From Deltaproteobacteria bacterium (GTDB lineage Bacteria; Desulfobacterota; Binatia; UBA9968), in NCBI GenBank assembly GCA_016210115.1, contig JACQUW010000180.1:1-64000 (forward strand): 64,000 nucleotides of DNA, in the 5' to 3' direction. The notes under the pieces were generated by a model, which searched no databases, was not told the origin of the DNA, and worked only from the letters and a program-made list of their open reading frames with translations. Position numbers and translations under genes: made by a program. This document shows, one piece after another, positions 19,068-37,931 of the stretch. How positions within the stretch are numbered: the stretch's first letter is position 1; each line of letters opens with the position of its first letter.

Positions 19068-20111
19068 ATGAAGCTTGTCAGTTTCGAAATCAGCACCCCT
19101 ATTGGTAAGGTCCGACGCATTGGCGCGTTGATCGATGCCAACGAGAACGGCCGTATCGTCGATCTTAGCAGCGCTTACGGAGCTTATCTCAAAAGTGAGA
19201 CAGACGAGCCGACGCCGCAGGAACTCGCGGCCCTTCGTACCCCACCGGGCATGATCGGCTGGCTGCGCGGCGCGCATAAATCAAAAGAAGCGGCGCGGCA
19301 AGCTCTGGAATATACGAGCCAGATTCTTAAGGGAGAGGCTGACCCAAGAGGCCTGAAGGGCGAAAAAATCGTTTACTCCCGGTCAGAGGTCCGACTGCTC
19401 GCTCCGCTGCCGCGCCCGCGCTCGATCCGCGATTTTTCCATTTACGAAGAGCACATGAGCATAGCGCACAAAGCGCCGAAGAAACCGGCCTGGTATCGCT
19501 GGCCGCCGTACTACAAAGGCAACCCCGACTCCGTCGTCGGCCCTGAAGATCCGATTCCATATCCGTACTATACCCAAAGATTGGATCTGGAGATCGAAAT
19601 CGCCATTGTGATCGGTAAGGAAGGTCGCAATCTCTCATTTGAACAGGCCAAAAAGCACATCGCAGGCTACACGATATTGATTGACTGCAGCGCGAGAGAC
19701 GGCTACGAGCGCGAGCCTTACGGACCGACCAAGAGAAAAGATTTTTGCAACGTGCTGGGTCCCTGCCTGGTGACCGCTGACGAAATAGACGAAGCTAGTC
19801 TTGACGTCCGCGTCAGCGTCGACGGTGAAACGTGGTTCGAAGGCAACACCGGGCATCGACGCAGCTTTTTGGCTCACCACCTCGTTGCATACGCTTCCGA
19901 CAACGAGACGGTCTATCCCGGCGATATTCTCGGTACCGGCACAGTCGGCCTCGGTTGTTCCATGGACCTCGGCCGTTGGATCAACGTCGGCCAGAGAGTG
20001 ACGTTTGACGTTCAAGGTATCGGGCAGCTTAGCCACCGGATCGTAGAGGGAGAGCGCGTAGTGGACTATACCTTAAAAGGCATGGATGGCCTGCTCAAGC
20101 CGCCTGACTGA
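19068..20111 (+). CDS. Fumarylacetoacetate hydrolase family protein
   Basis: The 347-residue product carries the FAH-fold C-terminal domain with metal-ligand features: IRDFSIYEEHMS, the LDLEIEIAIVIGKEG segment (acidic ligands), and GTGTVGLG. Members hydrolyse or decarboxylate C-C bonds of 1,3-dioxo acids in aromatic-compound catabolism. The ATG has AAGGAG upstream, 60 bases after the SBP stop, so it is likely the third gene of the ABC operon. That suggests the transporter imports an aromatic or diketo acid rather than iron. Confidence 0.88.
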   Translation: MKLVSFEISTPIGKVRRIGALIDANENGRIVDLSSAYGAYLKSETDEPTPQELAALRTPPGMIGWLRGAHKSKEAARQALEYTSQILKGEADPRGLKGEKIVYSRSEVRLLAPLPRPRSIRDFSIYEEHMSIAHKAPKKPAWYRWPPYYKGNPDSVVGPEDPIPYPYYTQRLDLEIEIAIVIGKEGRNLSFEQAKKHIAGYTILIDCSARDGYEREPYGPTKRKDFCNVLGPCLVTADEIDEASLDVRVSVDGETWFEGNTGHRRSFLAHHLVAYASDNETVYPGDILGTGTVGLGCSMDLGRWINVGQRVTFDVQGIGQLSHRIVEGERVVDYTLKGMDGLLKPPD

Positions 20112-20167
20112 GAAGCGGTGTCATCTAAACTAAAGCAAGCTCGCCGCTAAATTCCCGGTACGCTCGC

Positions 20168-20410
20168 TCAACGTTGTCTTTTAGGCGCTCGGGCTCGCTC
20201 CAGGTCCTGTAAGGTCCGATATCGCCCTAAAACCTCCGTCGCCATTGGCGTCGTTGCCAAGGCATCTACCACAAACGCTTTATCCTGACCCACGATCAGC
20301 CCAGCATTGCTGATGCCTGCCTCCCCACCCGGCTGAATGTACGCGAACGCATTCGGCCCTACCTCCACCAGACCTGTGCGCCAATTTTCAGCCTGCTCGA
20401 CTTTATTCAT
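20168..20410 (-). pseudogene. Truncated metallo-beta-lactamase-fold hydrolase (N-terminal fragment)
   Basis: The 80-codon frame starts like a typical MBL-fold hydrolase (VGPNAFAYIQPGGEAGISNAG ... DKAFVVDALATTPM). It ends after about 65 homologous residues in an unrelated Arg-rich tail. The HxHxDH metal-binding motif is missing, so the protein cannot be an active hydrolase. It adjoins the ATPase fragment and is part of a decayed segment. Confidence 0.65.
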
Positions 20411-20418
20411 GGGCTATT

Positions 20419-21549
20419 TTAGCTCCTTTCTTCACCGGCCCCGGGCACCTTTCCTGCAAACAAGCCTCGACGCTCCAACCACTTCACGATCTCCAGCACC
20501 GGCGAGATTGTCAAGGCGGGCGCCACGATGATGGTCCAATCTAGGACAGATAGGGAGAAAGTTCCAAAGAGCATCTGGAAGAAAGGAATATAGACGATCG
20601 CCAGGAGCACCGCGAGCTCCCACAGAATAGCGAGATTTAGCCATCTATTGGGAAACGGCCGGGTGAGCAACGACCGCCGGTCAGAGCGAAAATTGTAGGC
20701 CTTTGAGAATTCGATCAGAACGAGCGCGACAAAGGTCATCGCCATCGCCTCGGAAAGGCCCCACCCCGCCTTTAATAGCCAGGTGAAAAGGGAGAGGTTT
20801 GCGAGTGCAGACCACAAACCACCTCCCAGCATGAGACGAATCACCGGGCGGGTGAAGATTCCCGTTCGAGGATTGCGCGGCGGCCGGCGCATGAGGTCCG
20901 CCTCGGGTGAATCCCCAGCCAGAGCCAAAGCGGGCAGACCGTCAGTGGCCAGATTCACGTAAAGAATCTGGACGGCAGTCATAGGAAGAGGAAGCCCTGC
21001 CAGGGCAGCGCCGGCCATGAGCCCGATCTCGCCGATATTCGCTGAGAGGAGATACATCAAATATTTTTTGATATTGTCGAAAATCGCTCTCCCCTCTTCC
21101 ACGGCCGCGACTATGGAGGCAAAGTTGTCATCGGTGAGCGTCATGACGGCGGCTTCCCGCGCAACGTCCGTTCCCGTTATTCCCATGGCAATCCCGATAT
21201 CGGCTTTCTTAAGAGCGGGCGCATCATTGACTCCGTCTCCAGTCATCGCGACAATATGGCCTTGTTTCTGGAGCGCGCTGACAACGCGAAGCTTGTGCGC
21301 GGGTGAGACCCGGGCGTAAATCGCAACATTTCCCACCTCGCGGTCAAATTCAGCATCGCTCATTGCGTCCAGCTCTCTGGCCGTGATAATACGCCCGCCT
21401 TTAAGGAGACCCAATTCCCTGCCTACCGCTCCGGCCGTGACGGGATGGTCGCCCGTGATCATGACCGGCATGATGCCGGCTTGCTCGCACTTATCAATCG
21501 CTGCTTTTACTTCGGGACGCGGCGGATCGATCATGCCGACTAAGGGGGA
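20419..21549 (-). pseudogene. 3' fragment of a cation-transporting P-type ATPase
   Basis: The fragment (371 codons from its first ATG) corresponds to the C-terminal 40 percent of the ATPase encoded at 24928-27627. It keeps TGDGVNDAPALKKADIG and the last six membrane helices, but lacks the actuator, the DKTGT phosphorylation site and the nucleotide-binding domain. Homology begins around LVGMIDPPRPE at about 21549, just downstream of an in-frame TAG. Many residues match the intact copy, so this is a decayed paralogue. It cannot pump ions as it stands. Confidence 0.8.
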
Positions 21550-21662
21550 GCCTCGTTCTCCTCCGCTCTCCGACTTCTACTTAGCTCCTCTAATTTTTAC
21601 CGTACACCGCCCGTCGCGGCTATAACCGTACCCGCCGGGTTCGGCTCCTCCACCGTAACTAT

Positions 21663-22103
21663 TCATAGGTATGGCGATACTATCGCATCATGTATAGAAC
21701 GGACAAAGCGAAAACATAGAACTGCCACAATGGTTAGAGAATCCCAAGCAAAGAAAAGCAGCTTCCTGCTCGCTCTGTAGGTCAATGCAATAGCCGCAAC
21801 GGCAGTCATCGCAATGGCAGCGGCGGAGCTGACGAGATGATTCCTGGAGACATGCGAGAGAATCGGTCCCTTGGTATAAAAGATATCATCAACGGCGAGT
21901 ATCACGATATTAAAGAGGTTGCTGCCGAAAATATTTCCAAACGCCATGTCCACGGACTCGATTTTCAACGCAGCCAGGGAAAGAACGATCTCAGGTAGGA
22001 CCAATTCAGGAACGTTGTTGGCTAACTGGAATAACTTCGTGCCAGGCTCTTCGAAATGCAACGTAGAGACTCCAATCGTACGCTTCCGCCAATTTACGCG
22101 CAA
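21663..22103 (-). pseudogene. 3' fragment of a Na+/Ca2+ exchanger family protein
   Basis: About 120 residues match the C-terminal third of the intact exchanger at 23725-24723 (fragment NNVPELVLPEIVLSLAAL ... AFGNIFGSNLFNIVILAVDD; intact STTLPELV ... VGNLFGSTVFNILVLAIDD). The first alpha-repeat and half of the second are missing. Upstream it abuts the truncated transposase. It is non-functional as an exchanger and sits next to the ATPase fragment, repeating the gene pair that is intact 3 kb away. Confidence 0.78.
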
Positions 22104-22129
22104 CTTCCGCTCTTACGAGGGTAGTAGAT

Positions 22130-23371
22130 TTGGGGCGCAAGCGGCGCGTGGTGCGTGGGCGCAAGCTTCGGATCGATACCACGGTAACGGAGACCGACAT
22201 TCACTATCCCACCGACAGTGGGTTATTGGGGGATGCGGTGAGGGTCTTGTCGCGCACGATGAAGAGAATCGAGCGGGAGGTGGGAGATGTCGGAACGCGC
22301 TTACGGGATCGGACCCGGAGCGTTAAGTATCGACTGATTGAGATTGGGCGCTCGGCGATGAGAAAGAGCGAGGGAGCTTTGGCGCGGCGGACTGAGGCGT
22401 ATCGGAAGCTGATGGCGACAACGAACAAAGTACTGGAGCAGGCGAAGTGTTTTTCCGAGGAAGTGGCTGCGGGGGTGAAGCGAGCTTCGACGCCGCTGGG
22501 GCAGGTGTTGATTGAGGGATTGGGGAAGTATCTCGATCAGATGCACGGGTTAACGGTGCGAGTGCTCAAGCAGACCCAAGCCCGCGTGCTTGAGGGAAAT
22601 CGTCATTACGCGGACAAGCTCTACAGTGTTTTTGAGGTGCACACCGAAGCGATCCGCAAGGGAAAGCTATCGAAGCCGACGGAGTTTGGGAAGCTCGTGA
22701 AGACCCAGGAGGCGGAGCATCAGATCATCACGGACTATGAGATTTTTCTACAACGGCCGGCGGATCAGGAGCTTTCGATTCCAGCGATTGAGAAGCACCG
22801 GGAGATTTTTGGTCGGGTGCCGCAGTTGGTGGCCAGCGATGCAGGGTTTTTCAGTTTAGAGAACAAGCGTCAGGCAAAAGAGCTGGGAGTGAAGCGGGTG
22901 GCGGTTCCCAATAAGAAGGGTCGGGATCAGGGCCGATCCAAGGAGCAGAAGCAACGTTGGTTTCGCCGAGCGCAGCGTTGGCGGGTCGGATGCGAAGGGA
23001 GGATCAGTGTTCTCAAGAGAAGACATGGGTTGCGGAGGTCTCGTTACAGAGGGATGGATGGGATGGAAAGATGGGTTGGATGGGGCGTGATCGCCGACAA
23101 TTTGATTCATATCGGCAAACTTTTGCGCGCCACCGGGACAGTGGGTGGTGCTGCTACGGGCGGTATACTGGGGGCCGCTGTTGGGCATCTCGGAGCGGGA
23201 GCGGCAGTCGGGGGTGCTCTCGGGCTTGGCGCCGGGGCGCTTATTGGGGATCGAATTCAAGCTTTGCAGCAACGACAAGCGGAGTTGGAGAAGCAGCTCA
23301 AGGCAGATGAAACCGAGCTAGAACGTCAACGGGAAGAGCTAGAACGAATCAAAAAGGAAAGCAAAGAGTAA
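22130..23371 (+). pseudogene. 5'-truncated ISNCY-type transposase fused in frame to a glycine-zipper tail
   Basis: A 413-codon frame encodes two unrelated parts. Residues 1 to about 325 are the core of an ISNCY-family transposase: RIDTTVTETDIHYPTDSGLL with the first catalytic Asp, VASDAGFFS with the second, CEGRISVLKRRHG with the Glu, and the usual end WGVIADNLIHI. The N-terminal DNA-binding part is missing. Residues about 335-413 are a glycine-zipper and coiled-coil tail (GAAVGHLGAGAAVGGALGLGAGALIGD, then Glu/Gln-rich) very like the lipoprotein at 37599-37931 but without its signal peptide. The start is a TTG without a clear ribosome site. It is probably a relic of transposition; whether the fusion is translated is unknown. 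Confidence 0.75.
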
Positions 23372-23724
23372 TAGCCAGAGCACATGACTAAGCTTCGTTT
23401 TGCATTTTACATAAAATAGCTGCTGTTATTTGTCTTAACAGTGAGTTCCGGGCCACTGAGAGGTGGAATGCGCCATGAATTGCTCAGCCAGTGAGACTCC
23501 TCCGTGGGTGTGATCACACCGCGAAAACTCTCACGGGGTTATTCTCTCGATGCGCAAGGATGCACGGTCTCGCAATGTCTTCAATGGAGAAATCGGGAGC
23601 CAAGAATAATAAAGCGCAGGAAATGAATCAGGAGCCAGGCGATCATGGCTGAACAGCAAGATTCACGCCCTCTCTTCTGCCTGCAAGACATGCGCGTTTT
23701 ATCAATCAAGTACGCTGCTGGGAT
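23372..23724. other. Intergenic stretch, nothing recognised
   Basis: This is the 353-base space between the transposase fusion and the exchanger stop. No credible ORF, RNA or strong hairpin was seen. It may hold the far end of the former insertion sequence. Confidence 0.4.
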
Positions 23725-24723
23725 TCATCTCATGTTGTATAGAGACAACAGGTTGAAAAAATAGACCGCCAAGATCGCCAGAGAATCCCAAGCAAACAAG
23801 GCCGGTTTCTCAGCCGCCCTGTAGGTCAGACCGATCACGGCGATGGAAAGAGCCACCATGGCGGACACGGCGCTCACAACGTGATTTCCGGATACGTGTG
23901 CGAGGAGCGGCCCAGCCGTATAAAAGAAGTCATCGATGGCCAGGACGAGGATATTGAACACGGTGCTGCCGAAAAGGTTTCCCACGGCCATATCCGCAGC
24001 CCCGATCGTGAGGGCGGAAACGGAAACCACGAGCTCGGGAAGGGTTGTCGACAGCGCTATAAAAACGCTCCCCACGAAAGTCTGGCCAAGACCGGTCCTT
24101 GCGGCGATCTCCGCGCCGAGATGGGGAAGGTACATCGCCGCCCCAATGATTAAAACGGCATTTACGCCGAACATGGTATAGGCCTTTGCCTTGGAAACAT
24201 GCCGGTATTGAACCTCTTCTGCCATCTCCTTGACGAATTCTGCTATGCGCCTCTTTTCATAGAAGAAGACCATCCTCATTGCCAAGAAATAGATGGCAAT
24301 CAAGATCAAACTGTTCACACCGATCCATCCAATCGAGGGAAGACTGGTACCAAGAAGAGTGCTAAGGCTCACGAGACCGAGAACTAGAATTCCAAACCCT
24401 GCAGTCAGGATATGTCCTTGATGAACTCTTGTCGAAATCGGCGCTGAGCCGCCGATCAAATCGAGCACGGGGATCATAAGGACGTTGAGCATGCACGCGC
24501 CTAGGATATTTCCCGCCGCAATATCCGGCAGATCAAAAAGGGCTACCGAGCTAATACCCGTGACCAACTCCGGCAGAGAAGTAACCGATGCCATGAGAAC
24601 CACTCCGATCCAGGTCCGCCCCAACCCCGTTTTTTCAGCGATGATGTCGCCGTATTTCGAGAGATGCGTGCCCGCGACAAGGATGGCCACCGTGCAGGCG
24701 ATAAACTGAAGCCAGAGAATCAT
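23725..24723 (-). CDS. Sodium/calcium exchanger family antiporter
   Basis: The 332-residue inner-membrane protein has about ten helices in two inverted repeats, each with an alpha-motif: VTSLPELVTGISSVALFDLPDIAAGNILGA and STTLPELVVSVSALTIGAADMAVGNLFGS. These acidic residues bind cations in CaX/NCX-type antiporters, which expel Ca2+ in exchange for Na+ or H+. Length matches the family. It is downstream of the P-type ATPase on the same strand (204-base gap), so the pair may act together in cation homeostasis. Confidence 0.93.
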   Translation of the reverse strand: MILWLQFIACTVAILVAGTHLSKYGDIIAEKTGLGRTWIGVVLMASVTSLPELVTGISSVALFDLPDIAAGNILGACMLNVLMIPVLDLIGGSAPISTRVHQGHILTAGFGILVLGLVSLSTLLGTSLPSIGWIGVNSLILIAIYFLAMRMVFFYEKRRIAEFVKEMAEEVQYRHVSKAKAYTMFGVNAVLIIGAAMYLPHLGAEIAARTGLGQTFVGSVFIALSTTLPELVVSVSALTIGAADMAVGNLFGSTVFNILVLAIDDFFYTAGPLLAHVSGNHVVSAVSAMVALSIAVIGLTYRAAEKPALFAWDSLAILAVYFFNLLSLYNMR

Positions 24724-24927
24724 GGGATGCCCCCCGCCGGCCTCGGTAAGCGAGCGCCTTCAAATTTGGCGGCCTTCACATCTATCACTGCGGCTCGCCC
24801 GATCCAACCCATTCCTGGATTGGCCCATCTTATCGCCCGCAAGCAACACTCGTTCTCCAGTTTACATGATATGGCGCTGCGGCCTCGGCCGACGCAAGTG
24901 AGGCAACATGGTTTTCTCTTCCCCGGC

Positions 24928-27627
<2,700 letters not shown>

Positions 27628-27796
27628 TTTCACTACCGCTCGCCGGACAACCGGCATTTCCGGGCCGGGCCCAAGGAAAAGAGAATTGAAGATCAGCTTC
27701 GGGCGCTTGCAAAAACAGCGGGAAAAAGGCCGCACACGGTGGACGCCGCGCATAGAGAGCTCTGCCTTGTGGGGCGGTGACCCTATGTCTAAACCT

Positions 27797-37598: not shown

Positions 37599-37931
37599 AT
37601 GAAAAGTATGAAGATTTTCATTGTGACCTCTTTGGCGCTGGTGATGTCCGCTTGTGCTACTCCATTGACCACCAGAGAGAAGGCGGCCGGCATCGGAGCC
37701 TTGGGAGGAGCCGCTGCCGGGGGAATCGTGGGCAGCACCGTTGGCCACGCTGGAGCCGGAGCCGCAATCGGCGGCGCGCTTGGACTCGGCGCGGGCGCGC
37801 TTGTAGGCGATCAGCTCCAGTCTCAGGAGGAAAAGCAAAAAGAGCAGGAGCGCCAGCTCGAACAAACCGAGGCCGAGCTTGAACGGCAGCGCAGAGAAAT
37901 TGAGCGGCTCAAAATAGAAAGGGAGTATTAG
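37599..37931 (+). CDS. Glycine-zipper lipoprotein with coiled-coil tail
   Basis: The 110-residue product has a lipoprotein signal (lipobox VMSAC) and a glycine-zipper segment (about residues 30-70, repeated Gly-x3-Gly and Ala), followed by a Glu/Gln/Arg-rich coiled coil (EEKQKEQERQLEQTEAELER). Proteins of this YMGG/SlyB-like kind insert hairpins in the outer membrane. The zipper and tail are closely repeated at the end of the transposase fusion at 22130-23371, so one copy was probably captured by the insertion sequence. Confidence 0.85.
   Translation: MKSMKIFIVTSLALVMSACATPLTTREKAAGIGALGGAAAGGIVGSTVGHAGAGAAIGGALGLGAGALVGDQLQSQEEKQKEQERQLEQTEAELERQRREIERLKIEREY

Follow-up and report, generated by a model that had tools for sequence, protein, structure and literature searches.

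A transposase fragment joined in frame to part of a glycine-zipper lipoprotein gene, probable debris of rearrangement around an insertion sequence

A single open frame over two gene fragments

The DNA analyzed here (the window) is a 64,000-nucleotide stretch of one contig of a Binatia genome assembly. An open frame on its forward strand, called at 22130 to 23371 with a TTG start, encodes 413 amino acids. There is no stop from position 22067 on, which makes 434 open codons, and the fusion of more than 400 codons reported in a preliminary description of this DNA is therefore confirmed. The bases GAGGG, read by eye, lie about 8 bases upstream of the TTG, so translation of the frame is possible. 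A simple sigma-70 scan found no promoter-like site for it. AlphaFold gave a poor model of the fusion, with a mean pLDDT of 45.6, which we set aside.

Positions 22115 to 23125 (forward strand) derive from the interior of an insertion sequence (IS) of ISNCY/IS5-like type and cover approximately positions 116 to 443 of the 444 in the NCBIfam model NF033593 (ISNCY_1). Residues 2 to 329 of the fused frame correspond to model positions 122 to 443, and the match reaches back to model position 116-117 if reading is begun at 22115. The transposase part scored 323.6 to 327.9 bits against a cut-off of 325, with weaker matches to IS5_1, IS1182, and Pfam DDE_Tnp_1. Profile matching places this predicted protein in an IS5/IS1182-like group. 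The preliminary description had recognized three catalytic residues of an ISNCY-like transposase, and all three are conserved in our alignment: D16 in RIDTTV (22175 to 22177), D237 in ASDAGFF (22838 to 22840), and E289 in GCEGRIS (22994 to 22996). None of the 28 columns that are invariant across the other transposases compared is altered in the window copy.

The remainder of the frame, at 23126 to 23371 (forward strand), comes from the 3' part of a lipoprotein gene with a glycine zipper and a coiled coil, and it is read in the native frame of that gene. The glycine zipper begins at about residue 333 and is followed by a coiled coil. Residues 334 to 412, approximately, match glycine-zipper models (PF13488 at 21.6 bits, under its cut-off of 25), which bears out the earlier reading that the transposase runs in frame into such a domain. 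That reading also called the tail nearly the same as the intact glycine-zipper lipoprotein at 37599 to 37931 (forward strand). This was overstated. The two are 62% identical in amino acids, whereas over residues 333 to 412 the tail shares 76% identity with an intact lipoprotein that the same genome encodes on a different contig, C91 (locus L033), and it is 73% identical to a lipoprotein of the relative G004. We therefore rejected the idea that the tail is a second, nearly identical copy of the gene at 37599, which is a more distant paralogue. The lipoprotein signal is lost, as had been described: intact relatives have a signal peptide with a lipobox cysteine, and transposase sequence stands in its place in the fusion. 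Because the export signal is absent, the predicted product is not a lipoprotein. In five loci of relatives (L007, L008, L009, L011, and L035), short glycine-zipper lipoprotein genes adjoin a longer paralogue whose C-terminal part is OmpA-like.

We also examined constraint on the tail. With G004 as the outgroup, a crude polarization site by site with synonymous sites near saturation, the tail lineage had 16 nonsynonymous and 16 synonymous substitutions (P = 0.004 against a neutral expectation of 73% nonsynonymous) and the C91 lineage had 12 and 17 (P = 0.0003), both falling below that expectation. Constraint did not differ between the two lineages (Fisher P = 0.61). Given the saturated synonymous sites and the crude polarization, this result says only that the tail was apparently constrained for most of its history, as a lipoprotein gene would be, and has not yet relaxed.

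Missing ends and truncated neighbors

A scan of genome contigs found a single close relative of the transposase part, L039 in an Acidobacteria assembly, with 64% amino acid identity over residues 1 to 332 of the fused frame. The L039 element spans positions 71 to 2101 and has perfect 25-bp inverted repeats (71 to 95 and 2077 to 2101). It encodes a 476-residue transposase (579 to 2009), with the DUF772 N-terminal domain at residues 63 to 132, and a 119-residue DUF6788-like accessory protein. The accessory ORF overlaps the transposase start (ATGA), and the arrangement suggests that translation of the two may be coupled.

Homology to the L039 element breaks off inside the element at both ends of the window copy, which begins within the transposase gene and stops about eight codons short of its stop. 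The window copy has therefore lost about 0.95 kb on the left (the accessory gene, the DUF772 domain, and an inverted repeat) and about 0.1 kb on the right (the stop codon and an inverted repeat). Terminal repeats had been proposed for a search near 22.1 and 23.1 kb, but the 25-bp repeat of L039 had no copy anywhere in the window at up to 3 mismatches, a threshold that more diverged repeats would escape. Direct repeats of at least 12 nt were also absent from 21400 to 23760 (real target site duplications are shorter, and here they would have no IS ends left to flank). With both the N-terminal domain and the inverted repeats tested for and absent, the window copy is, as judged from its sequence, a fragment of an ISNCY_1/IS5-like element and not a functional member. 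Any product of the fusion would lack both the DUF772 domain and an export signal and would work neither as a transposase nor as a lipoprotein.

The right junction lies at 23119 to 23141 (forward strand). Identity to L039 falls at about 23119, from 8 to 10 of 12 bases down to 3 to 4 of 12, and matching to the glycine-zipper gene on C91 climbs to 8 to 9 of 12 by about 23141. Of the two remaining forward frames, one is likewise open over this junction, for 131 codons, and when two native frames share a strand, chance puts them in register about 1 time in 3. Therefore, the openness of the fused frame is weak evidence of selection. The 3' flank of the tail (23369 to 23730) did not notably resemble the sequences that flank the C91 and G004 lipoprotein genes.

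On the left of the fusion, the reverse strand carries two truncated genes. The C-terminal 360 or so residues of a P-type ATPase lie at 20419 to 21549 (the 21549 edge was placed by eye). This copy lacks about 570 N-terminal residues and shares 78% identity with the full-length ATPase at 24928 to 27753. At 21684 to 21999 is a Na/Ca exchanger pseudogene fragment, the C-terminal third (about 105 residues), which has a frameshift near its C terminus and is nearest to a gene of the relative G006 (77% nucleotide identity). The fusion is thus one of a cluster of truncated genes. Between the exchanger and IS fragments, 115 bp (22000 to 22114) have no secure assignment; their similarity to the G006 exchanger DNA was marginal and was equalled by 2 of 300 shuffles. 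The right neighbor of the fusion is a complete Na/Ca exchanger (23725 to 24723, reverse strand). ATPase and exchanger genes are adjacent in the relatives G004 and G013, so the truncated pieces beside the fusion are copies of genes that neighbor one another.

Some further observations concern these genes. The truncated ATPase stands beside the truncated exchanger in an order that differs from that of the intact pair (20419 to 21549 compared with 24928 to 27753), which points to more than one rearrangement, indeed several, at this location. Elsewhere in the same genome, a second C-terminal exchanger fragment (L065, G000:C11, 9930 to 10301) is open for 127 codons without an N-terminal part. On contig C46 of G004, the ATPase and exchanger occupy 5.1 to 8.8 kb, and a lipoprotein resembling that of C91 lies near 34 kb. 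We considered this contig as the ancestral state of the junction and rejected it, because the two groups of genes are 25 kb apart.

Occurrence and likely origin of the fusion

The preliminary description suggested looking for the same junction in other genomes, and it was not found. Among 145 genomes searched, which included no other species of the window's genus, the junction DNA occurred only in the window's own and was absent from the 144 others. The protein search covered 58 genomes, and none of the 57 others had a second fused protein. Conservation of the fusion in several species under purifying selection was accordingly not seen in these genomes. A search of 395 genomes from the phylum yielded just one further transposase at E <= 1e-40, with 34% identity. 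Viral contigs and phage records had no match to the fusion, and plasmid records had only distant ISNCY transposases (<60% identity, none covering 80% of the query). Literature searches on IS remnants and glycine-zipper proteins turned up nothing relevant to the fusion.

We consider it highly likely that the fusion is genomic debris, a recent chimera without function that arose when sequence around an IS copy was rearranged or deleted. An ISNCY/IS5-like copy would once have stood close to a second lipoprotein gene of the glycine-zipper kind. One deletion or rearrangement would then have removed the 5' part of that gene along with the right end of the IS, which held the stop codon and an inverted repeat. 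Another event would have taken the left end (the accessory gene and the transposase N terminus) beside an already truncated Na/Ca exchanger. The two native frames would then have met in register by chance, which is about a 1-in-3 outcome, to give a single long open frame. The fragments themselves, their missing ends, the open frame, and the lack of the junction in the other genomes searched are observed; the order of these events, the recency of the join, and the lack of function are what we infer. The join is probably recent because both parts appear undecayed, with no invariant transposase column altered and no relaxation in the tail. This undecayed state fits a recent join and fits selection on the fusion equally well. 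The earlier statement that the fusion is either recent or kept by selection is therefore upheld as an alternative. However, we found no evidence of selection, because the tail is constrained like its intact paralogue, the junction was in no other genome searched, and an open frame is expected when the parts are in register.

A role for the fusion would require that a captured transposase catalytic core and a zipper/coiled-coil tail have been kept together by the host, for example as a membrane-associated or oligomerizing DNA-binding protein. The 413 open codons, the intact D-D-E residues with all 28 invariant columns unchanged, and a stop-free tail with past constraint are consistent with this. 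However, the fusion was seen in only one genome among those searched, it lacks the DUF772 domain and a signal peptide, its neighbors are truncated, and the constraint on its tail is explained by a past as a lipoprotein gene, being the same as in the intact C91 gene. We regard a kept fusion as very improbable. Slightly more doubtful still is the specific form in which an expressed and retained protein would combine a transposase catalytic core, stripped of the N-terminal domain, with a zipper/coiled-coil oligomerization tail and would have a new role in this lineage. The junction might instead be an artifact, if the contig carrying it (C103) was misjoined at about 22.1 kb, about 23.13 kb, or both. 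In favor of this, the assembly comprises 431 contigs totaling 8.35 Mb, whereas others of the family are mostly 2 to 7 Mb, and its estimated contamination is 8.94%. In addition, several truncated genes stand in a row, and the junction was confirmed by no other genome searched. On the other hand, there is no run of N bases from 20001 to 24800, which includes the site near 23.13 kb where an assembly break had been named as a concern. The IS fragment is also single copy in the assembly, so a repeat, the usual cause of misjoins, is not seen. Misassembly is therefore unlikely, although we give it more weight than a retained function.

The preliminary description had proposed insertion of an IS into, or its capture of, a second copy of the lipoprotein gene. 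One element of that proposal stands, in that a transposase is joined to part of a second zipper lipoprotein gene, with IS sequence and the 3' part of the lipoprotein gene side by side on one strand. A simple insertion does not stand. Both IS ends and their repeats are gone, a search for direct repeats at the edges gave none (at least 12 nt, 21400 to 23760), and the left side holds a fragment of an unrelated gene, the exchanger, rather than the lipoprotein 5' part; nor did we find evidence of capture. We reject simple insertion as the least probable explanation of the locus. At most, insertion may have been an initial step that other deletions followed.

If the fusion is the debris of rearrangement, little follows from it beyond a clear example of how IS and gene fragments can yield a long frame with annotated domains. 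An annotation pipeline could name such a frame a transposase or a multidomain protein. The fusion would matter only if it were conserved and expressed.

Comparison with known systems

Compared with an ISNCY_1-type transposase (NF033593; related models are IS5_1, NF033578, and IS1182, NF033551), the window copy keeps D, D, and E and a nearly complete C-terminal end, but it is without the first 115 or so residues, the stop codon, the accessory ORF, and both inverted repeats. The label ISNCY stands for "not characterized yet" and is a holding category. The IS1202 group, formerly filed under it, is a separate family with a TnsB-like transposase (PMC10132070). The window transposase matches DDE_Tnp_1 and IS5-type models instead, which is a different type.

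The tail resembles glycine-zipper lipoproteins (Gly-zipper_Omp, PF13488; YiaD-like, NF053611), such as the C91 protein, in having the zipper and coiled coil in the same frame. However, it lacks their signal peptide and lipobox cysteine and has a transposase ahead of it.

Partial insertion sequences and IS-associated pseudogenes occur in bacterial genomes, and the window likewise has a truncated IS beside truncated genes. Here, however, the two frames are in register and form one long ORF.
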